From Salinimicrobium sp. TH3 (GTDB lineage: Bacteria; Bacteroidota; Bacteroidia; Flavobacteriales; Flavobacteriaceae), in contig NZ_JAPONB010000006.1 in NCBI RefSeq assembly GCF_026676115.1, positions 176,753 through 240,752 of the forward strand: a stretch of 64,000 nt of DNA. Reading direction: 5' to 3'. The position numbers and the translations under genes were made by a program. The notes beneath the pieces are model-generated. The model was not told the origin of the DNA. It saw nothing but the letters and a program-made list of their open reading frames with translations, and did no database searches. This document shows, piece after piece, positions 63,123-64,000 of the stretch; position 1 is the first letter of the stretch, and every line of letters begins with the position of its first letter.

Positions 63123-63473
63123 ATGGAATCCTTAGTTAAATTTGTACAAGACGAATTTGTAACAAGTAAAGATTTTCCTGATTTTGCAGCAGGAGATACT
63201 ATTACTGTTTACTATGAAATTACAGAGGGTCAAAAAACCCGTACTCAGTTCTTCCGTGGAGTTGTTATTCAGAAAAGAGGAACAGGAGCTTCTCAAACTT
63301 TTACTATTCGTAAAATGAGTGGAACTGTAGGTGTTGAGCGTATTTTCCCGCTTAACCTTCCTGCCCTTCAAAAGATCGAGATCAACAAGCGCGGTAAAGT
63401 ACGTAGAGCCAGAATTTACTACTTTAGAGAACTTACTGGTAAAAAAGCCCGTATCAAAGAAAGAAGAAGATAA
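63123..63473 (+). CDS. rplS: 50S ribosomal protein L19
   Basis: 116 residues. Core pattern FAAGDTITVYYEITEGQKTR, RTQFFRGVVIQKRGTGASQTFTIRK and VERIFPLNLPALQKIEINKRGKVRRARIYYFRELTGKKARIKE is complete. L19 lies at the 30S-50S interface. Own promoter and a terminator 20 nt after the stop. Confidence 0.98.
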   Translation: MESLVKFVQDEFVTSKDFPDFAAGDTITVYYEITEGQKTRTQFFRGVVIQKRGTGASQTFTIRKMSGTVGVERIFPLNLPALQKIEINKRGKVRRARIYYFRELTGKKARIKERRR

Positions 63474-63492: not shown

Positions 63493-63520
63493 AAAAGGCC
63501 TCATTTTTTGAGGCTTTTTT
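63493..63520 (+). terminator. intrinsic terminator of rplS
   Basis: AAAAGGCCTCA / TGAGGCTTTT hairpin (one bulged G, T-rich loop), followed by six T. Confidence 0.85.
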
Positions 63521-63584
63521 ATTTGGATTTTTTTTAGGAAATATTTATAACTTTCTGAAATCAAATTACTTGCGTTTGAAATAA

Positions 63585-63592
63585 TAAATTTG
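63585..63592 (+). promoter_or_regulatory. -7 box of the candidate non-coding RNA (TAAATTTG)
   Basis: Perfect TAnnTTTG with TTG 12 bp upstream. Nothing but the candidate RNA lies downstream. Confidence 0.4.
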
Positions 63593-63598
63593 TAAATT

Positions 63599-63902
63599 TA
63601 TTATAGAGTTTAAAGTTAAAGAATGTCGCAAGGAATTCTTCTTTCAAACTCAATGTAGAGCAAAGATCTTTACATATGTTTTTACCTTTTTGAATAACAA
63701 TATGCCCGACATAGTTGGTTTAATTCGGTAAAAACGTTTTGGATGATTTACACACACTCTTTTGGGACATGTAAATCCATCCAGATGAAATAACAACTTG
63801 CTTGTGAAATATAGATTTCACTTGAGAATGTAAAAGTTCAGCAAAGAATGTTATTTCATTAGAGCCATTTCATTATCAAAATAGTGAAATGGCTTTTTTT
63901 TG
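63599..63902 (+). ncRNA. candidate structured non-coding RNA (~300 nt)
   Basis: No frame longer than about a dozen codons follows the promoter box, but paired segments are dense: an imperfect hairpin 63606-63624/63635-63651; GGATGATTTACA (63741-63752) with TGTAAATCCATCC (63770-63782, one bulge); ATGAAATAAC (63785-63794) with GTTATTTCAT (63850-63859), which encloses the perfect hairpin GTGAAAT-ATAG-ATTTCAC (63804-63821); and a terminal AGCCATTTCA/TGAAATGGCT hairpin with eight T. I recognise no known RNA: the RNase P, tmRNA and SRP signatures are absent. Confidence 0.55.
63863..63902 (+). terminator. terminator of the candidate non-coding RNA
   Basis: Perfect 10-bp stem AGCCATTTCA/TGAAATGGCT (63863-63872/63885-63894), 12-nt loop, T-run following. 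No coding gene precedes it for 390 nt, so it probably ends an RNA transcript. Confidence 0.85.
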
Positions 63903-64000
63903 TCCATTTTGCCCCTCTTTCTCGGATCAAGAACAATTTCTGGGTTTTTGAGTTTTTAAGCAAATAATTTCTCAAGCCGATACAAGAAGAACTCTGTTTT

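Follow-up and report, generated by a model that had tools for sequence, protein, structure and literature searches.

To our knowledge, only a small number of regulatory RNAs have been described from marine flavobacteria. The closest descriptions come from the transcriptome of Flavobacterium psychrophilum, where 85 new RNAs are listed (PMC9723704). In the sections of that report drawn on here, two metalloproteases have lower mRNA levels once Rfp18 is deleted, and Rfp18 is proposed to pair with target mRNAs through its third stem-loop. In those sections, Rfp18 and other Rfp RNAs are independently transcribed and strongly folded; they belong to the same bacterial family as the RNA considered here, whose transcription is predicted. 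Rfp18 is presented there as widely conserved in Flavobacterium, whereas the RNA considered here was missing from the 2.2 kb after rplS in three Flavobacterium loci (L078, L105 and L107). The comparison was made by description and not by sequence, and the present RNA may be equal to one of the Rfp RNAs. As far as the consulted parts of another source go, OLE, GOLLD and ROOL are large structured bacterial RNAs (PMC12286853), as is the RNA of this work; unlike them, it matched no Rfam family in those loci that were scanned. The flavobacterial 6S-Flavo (RF01685) is likewise a non-coding RNA but a separate gene elsewhere in the genome, and the L19-Flavobacteria leader (RF03130) shares the locus but is a different element, upstream of rplS.

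The window, i.e. the whole stretch of 64,000 nucleotides analysed, is a contig end of a Salinimicrobium genome (G000), and the RNA locus lies near its 3′ edge. The plus strand carries, in this order, trmD, the L19-Flavobacteria leader, rplS, the rplS terminator, a predicted promoter, the RNA and its terminator (Table 1). The original prediction had placed an unassigned structured RNA gene downstream of rplS, and the stretch at that place was indeed found to fold far below its shuffles, with a minimum free energy of -89.3 kcal/mol for 63600-63902 and none of 100 shuffles as low. The claim that rplS ends at a terminator of its own was also confirmed, and that of the RNA as a separate unit was supported, the hairpin and T run 3′ of rplS setting the two genes apart as units. 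A hairpin resembling this terminator was seen by eye 3′ of rplS in most of the relatives printed, and the RF03130 leader was present in 8/8 distant homologue loci scanned. The downstream gene in relatives is icd, which encodes monomeric isocitrate dehydrogenase (PF03971 for the G009 gene; the others by tblastn).

Table 1. Features of the rplS-RNA locus, in coordinates of the window.
Feature	Position	Strand	Evidence
trmD	upstream of the L19-Flavobacteria leader	+	PF01746
L19-Flavobacteria leader, RF03130	63064-63091	+	38.9 bits, upstream of rplS
rplS	63123-63473	+	PF01245
rplS terminator, hairpin AAGGCCTC/GAGGCTTT followed by a T run	about 63494-63520	+	sequence
Predicted promoter, TTG (63570-63572) and conserved -7 box TAAATTTA (63593-63600)	63570-63600	+	genus alignment
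Structured non-coding RNA, predicted transcript	63606-63902	+	z -8.84, covariation, R1 match
P1, tip GUCGCAAGGA	63606-63651	+	fold, genus covariation
P2, UGUAGAGC...AUCUUUACA	63653-63675	+	fold, covariation, long-form comparison
P3, long hairpin GUUUUUACC/GGUAAAAAC containing internal loops and two inner helices	63676-63737	+	fold, covariation
P4, sequence variable between genera, helix held by two-sided changes	63740-63783	+	covariation
P5, UGAAAUAAC/GUUAUUUCA, enclosing two smaller hairpins	63784-63860	+	fold, covariation
3′ terminator hairpin AGCCATTTCATTAT/ATAGTGAAATGGCT (63861-63896) and U tract	63861-63902	+	genus and family conservation

The contig stops at 64000 inside a repeat. Its last 77-93 bases (63908-64000) are repeated at the ends of contigs C1, C4 and C15 of the same genome, which indicates that the assembly breaks in a repeat directly 3′ of the RNA gene. 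In genome G009, a related stretch sits after a tRNA, with no rRNA found in the next 2.1 kb. The idea that the repeat is an rRNA leader was not supported.

Concerning the predicted transcript, the -7 box first proposed, TAAATTTG at 63585-63592, occurs in just 1/11 genus sequences, and the conserved box lies 8 nt further downstream. There, a TAnnTTTA box is found in all eleven genus sequences (TAAATTTA in 8/11, TATATTTA or TAATTTTA in the other 3), 20 nt downstream of a TTG common to 11/11 sequences of alignment A2. From these two elements, transcription is predicted to start near 63606. Comparable TTG...TAnnTT boxes were seen at the same position in most but not all wider family loci. The covariance model R1, built from this sequence and ten others of the genus, matches 63600-63903 with 330.6 bits.

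The fold consists of six hairpins in a row, P1 to P5 and the terminator. The original prediction of four stems, one of them nested, was right as to the presence of stems and wrong as to their number, six hairpins being found and P5 enclosing two smaller ones; the strong terminator expected on the same strand was found as a hairpin followed by a U tract. In P1, the consensus fold contains only the inner 7 pairs, the outer part being present in the window fold alone; AUGACnnAAGGA-like P1 tips also occur in three Salegentibacter loci, Christiangramia crocea, Mesonia aquimarina and two Aquimarina loci. P2 likely corresponds to an element, AAAGUAACGUUCUUU, that lies close to the 5′ end in the long form described below. 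The AGCCAT/ATGGCTTTT part of the 3′ hairpin is nearly invariant, and no other element seen in the family is as well conserved.

The RNA is present in 11/12 genus genomes, the one without a match being 74% complete. When the eleven sequences were folded with RNAalifold, 85 pairs were obtained, of which 20 showed two-sided changes that keep the pair, versus 5.3 in shuffled alignments (none of 500 shuffles reached 20, in a control that ignores the relatedness of the sequences). The paired cells amounted to 97.9% versus 95.0 in the shuffles, with 0/500 reaching the observed value, and sliding the partner by 1-3 columns left 36-50% of cells paired and 2-6 two-sided pairs. Most of the change was carried by helices other than the terminator, where 15/16 pairs were constant. 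With seven sequences from outside the genus added (L021, L031, L032, L035, L037, L064 and L176), two-sided changes rose to 46/85 pairs versus 22.7 shuffled, in an 18-sequence alignment, covering several genera, that was fitted to the model. The same seven, aligned with MAFFT and folded free of any model, gave back P2, P3 (inner hairpin included), P4, P5 and the terminator, and failed to give P1; 23/68 of their pairs were two-sided, as a count without shuffle control. The compensatory changes looked for across relatives were therefore found. In the genus, paired positions were more conserved (93%) than unpaired ones (79%), which indicates that part of the constraint falls on helix sequence; this counts against the reading preferred below and would also suit an antisense or a DNA-level role.

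None of the Rfam families accounts for the RNA. The scan against Rfam 15 proposed with the original prediction was run, and no family reached its gathering cut-off in the RNA, the only match in the whole window being RF03130 upstream of rplS; Flavo-1 was presumably among the families scanned. The eight distant homologue loci (E up to 1) gave RF03130 only, and the compact-form loci gave only matches below the cut-off. The suggested 6S-like nature was rejected, as RF01685 had no match in the interval (E up to 10) and 6S-Flavo sits at G000:C16:314896-315002 with 106.1 bits. As predicted, there was no match in the interval for tmRNA (RF00023), RNase P (RF00010) or small SRP RNA (RF00169), and each of the three was located over its cut-off elsewhere in the same genome.

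The RNA belongs to an RNA family of the Flavobacteriaceae, whose members are placed mostly downstream of rplS and are often absent. Model R1 finds it in further genera, adjoining rplS. Its first family search gave 8/199 genomes, far below the hairpin-pattern counts given below, because the model fits the compact form of the genus and strict filters were on. Reliance was placed on the 8/85 non-genus loci with E below 1e-8, since R1 yields only rough E-values, with minus-strand matches of the palindromic terminator reaching down to 3e-5. A relaxed hairpin pattern, AGCCAT...ATGG[CT]TTTT within 2.2 kb after rplS, was found in 55/77 testable named loci and was missing from the other 22; these loci are a non-random sample, the best 80 rplS matches of 583, with 3/80 too short to judge. 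The carriers include Salegentibacter, Christiangramia, Mesonia aquimarina, Maribacter, Winogradskyella, Lacinutrix, Tenacibaculum, Polaribacter, Aequorivita and Lutibacter. The loci lacking the RNA include, besides the three of Flavobacterium, two of Robiginitalea, and both states occur within Mesonia, Aquimarina, Tenacibaculum and Algibacter.

A strict hairpin pattern, which both over- and under-counts the RNA, was found in 201/397 family genomes and 136/237 genera, once in 193 genomes and twice in 8 (hand count), while a backward control pattern gave 0 in every row of the scan listed. Loci with changed inner stem pairs, such as L039, L043, L045, L066, L067, L093, L100 and L101 among others, were missed by it. 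An order-wide scan with the strict pattern gave 15/50 family genomes versus 5/246 genomes of other families (split by hand); the latter 5 genomes hold 6 matching places, not one of them at rplS. The suggestion of a lineage-specific RNA agrees with 201/397 genomes inside the family against 5/246 outside it. Among genomes of up to 2.0 Mb, about 1/55 had the strict hairpin (hand count; many are incomplete). Thirty-four family places of the strict pattern were fetched, a non-random set that deliberately took in second copies and short-loop hits: 26 had rplS upstream within 2 kb, 1 had it behind a subtilase gene and 7 had neither. One of the 26, L175, has its hairpin only 201 nt after rplS and is at best a strongly cut-down copy. 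Separately, L047:4352-4817 appears to be a decayed copy of the RNA gene, with the stem of its 3′ hairpin broken.

The 55 family RNAs, cut out with 5′ ends set by rule and not mapped, measured 243-631 nt. Their median z was -5.6 with the terminator and -3.2 without it; the weakest, at -0.5 once the terminator was removed, folded hardly better than chance. A long form of about 500 nt is represented by 19 sequences from Winogradskyella, Algibacter and allies. Besides P5 and the terminator, it contains the long-range helix UUGUUUUUUGA/UCAAGAAAAACAA and a hairpin with the conserved segment GGUCAAUACAUUUUGAAA; 41/88 of its pairs were two-sided and 96% of cells paired, in a count without shuffle control. 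OLE is of a similar order of size to this long form.

Ahead of the gene, GTTnATAA boxes were found 25-125 nt past the rplS stop in 47/55 loci with the RNA versus 3/22 without it, from which it is likely that the boxes belong to the RNA gene. They were absent from the Salinimicrobium, Salegentibacter and Christiangramia loci of that census. In locus L034 and most other carriers (L028-L107), there are often two or three of them ahead of the RNA promoter. These boxes resemble DnaA boxes. This likeness, together with a distance of about 10-13 kb between the RNA and dnaA in G009 and G103 (first 20 kb of each, with Pfam run on the G009 gene only), was the reason for considering a replication origin, which was rejected: the nearest GC-skew switch in G009 was about 210 kb from the RNA (a 440 kb stretch plus sparse samples of the rest), and sparse, noisy samples from G397 and G103 showed no clear switch at the locus.

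A promoter-like box, a terminator, covarying helices and a failure to find a conserved ORF characterize the locus, and on this sequence evidence the reading of a separate, lineage-specific structured RNA gene is supported. Concerning its function, we give a probability of roughly 0.5 to a family RNA, with its own promoter and terminator, that regulates in trans through folded domains engaged with a protein partner. The RNA would be transcribed from its predicted promoter and stopped at its own conserved terminator; judging by its architecture, it would then likely act in trans as a regulatory RNA, and its folded domains may work with a protein partner rather than only with mRNAs. Action in trans is proposed because an inserted gene on the rplS side, or a missing icd, leaves the RNA intact. 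The protein partner is favoured because helices and internal loops are constrained over about 300 nt and no unpaired segment emerged that could serve as one seed throughout the family, either in the count of the RHGTTCWT motif or in the comparison of paired and unpaired conservation in the genus.

The main rival to the protein-partner reading is antisense action, in which a loop or unpaired segment would pair with mRNAs in trans, be it the loop around ACGUUCUU in the 5′ hairpin or, in the 3′ hairpin, the AGCCAU strand. We regard it as possible, although we doubt it on balance. The promoter-like box and the terminator would suit such an RNA equally, the AGCCAT strand is near-invariant, and Rfp18, in the sections of its report cited above, offers a precedent in the same bacterial family (PMC9723704). 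RHGTTCWT was found in the first 200 nt of 41/55 RNAs versus 73/1100 shuffles, but the motif is missing from the other 14, and a length of up to about 600 nt with many covarying helices exceeds the needs of an antisense RNA.

It is improbable that the RNA is a cis element, i.e. an icd leader or attenuator, or part of the rplS mRNA at its 3′ end, with alternative folds of P5 and the terminator. The placed copies are near rplS, but rplS has its own terminator, and in three loci (L032, L237 and L238) the RNA is separated from rplS by a subtilase (S8) gene. The genomes concerned are G004, G290 and that of Salegentibacter agarivorans; the G004 protein matches PF00082, and its homologues were identified by tblastn. 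In G004, rplS is about 1.7 kb from the RNA, behind that gene. On the other side, icd lies within 1.6 kb downstream in 50/55 RNA loci, in a census that counts only copies with a terminator-like hairpin of their own and cannot show copies lacking one. A cis leader would always be upstream of icd and on the same transcript, but in four loci (L058, L061, L082 and L085) the 1.6 kb downstream of the RNA contains no forward start of icd. In addition, a TAnnTTTG box stands between the RNA terminator and icd in 34/50 loci (16/50 lack the exact box), a rate similar to the 10/15 loci without the RNA that have it ahead of icd. A P5/terminator switch is possible in Salinimicrobium, where the 3′ strand of P5 could also pair with the 3′ strand of the terminator, but in long forms, whose strands read ATTTCA versus ATATCA or ATGTCA, the pairing, judged by eye, is lost, and the switch was rejected.

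The absence of a credible ORF was upheld, as no conserved protein was found in the RNA and the longest plus-strand frames of the 55 family RNAs had a median of 29 aa versus 30 aa in mononucleotide shuffles. A short frame, MSQGILLSNSM at 63623-63658, lies inside P1. Its MSxGILL-like pattern, an ATG or GTG start with 6-10 further codons reading MS[QKP]G[IVT][LF]..., occurs in 10/11 genus sequences, and starts resembling ATGACnnAAGGA are seen in 7 loci from other genera. An mRNA for a tiny or leader peptide starting in P1, the main alternative of the original prediction, is nevertheless very improbable, considering that G004 has ACG at the start, that the frame spans 7-11 codons with no fixed end and covers 36 of about 300 nt inside a covarying hairpin (helix 1), and that the motif, present in 8/36 other family RNAs (one of them from Salinimicrobium), occurs in 0/19 long-form RNAs.

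Returning to the RNA as a trans regulator with a protein partner, a more specific version can be put forward tentatively. The RNA may represent a new class of large ornate RNA forming the core of an undescribed ribonucleoprotein of the Flavobacteriaceae: encoded at a single locus, 300-600 nt long, compacted in Salinimicrobium and close relatives, preceded by a GTTnATAA control region in most carriers, and with the near-invariant 3′ hairpin as a handle for the partner. Its absences are patchy and most marked among small genomes, which points to an accessory regulator and not a housekeeping RNA. What emerges is a structured RNA held at one site in many genera, with no Rfam match and with a precise predicted start, end and set of helices; the species that lack it are natural knock-outs for comparison.
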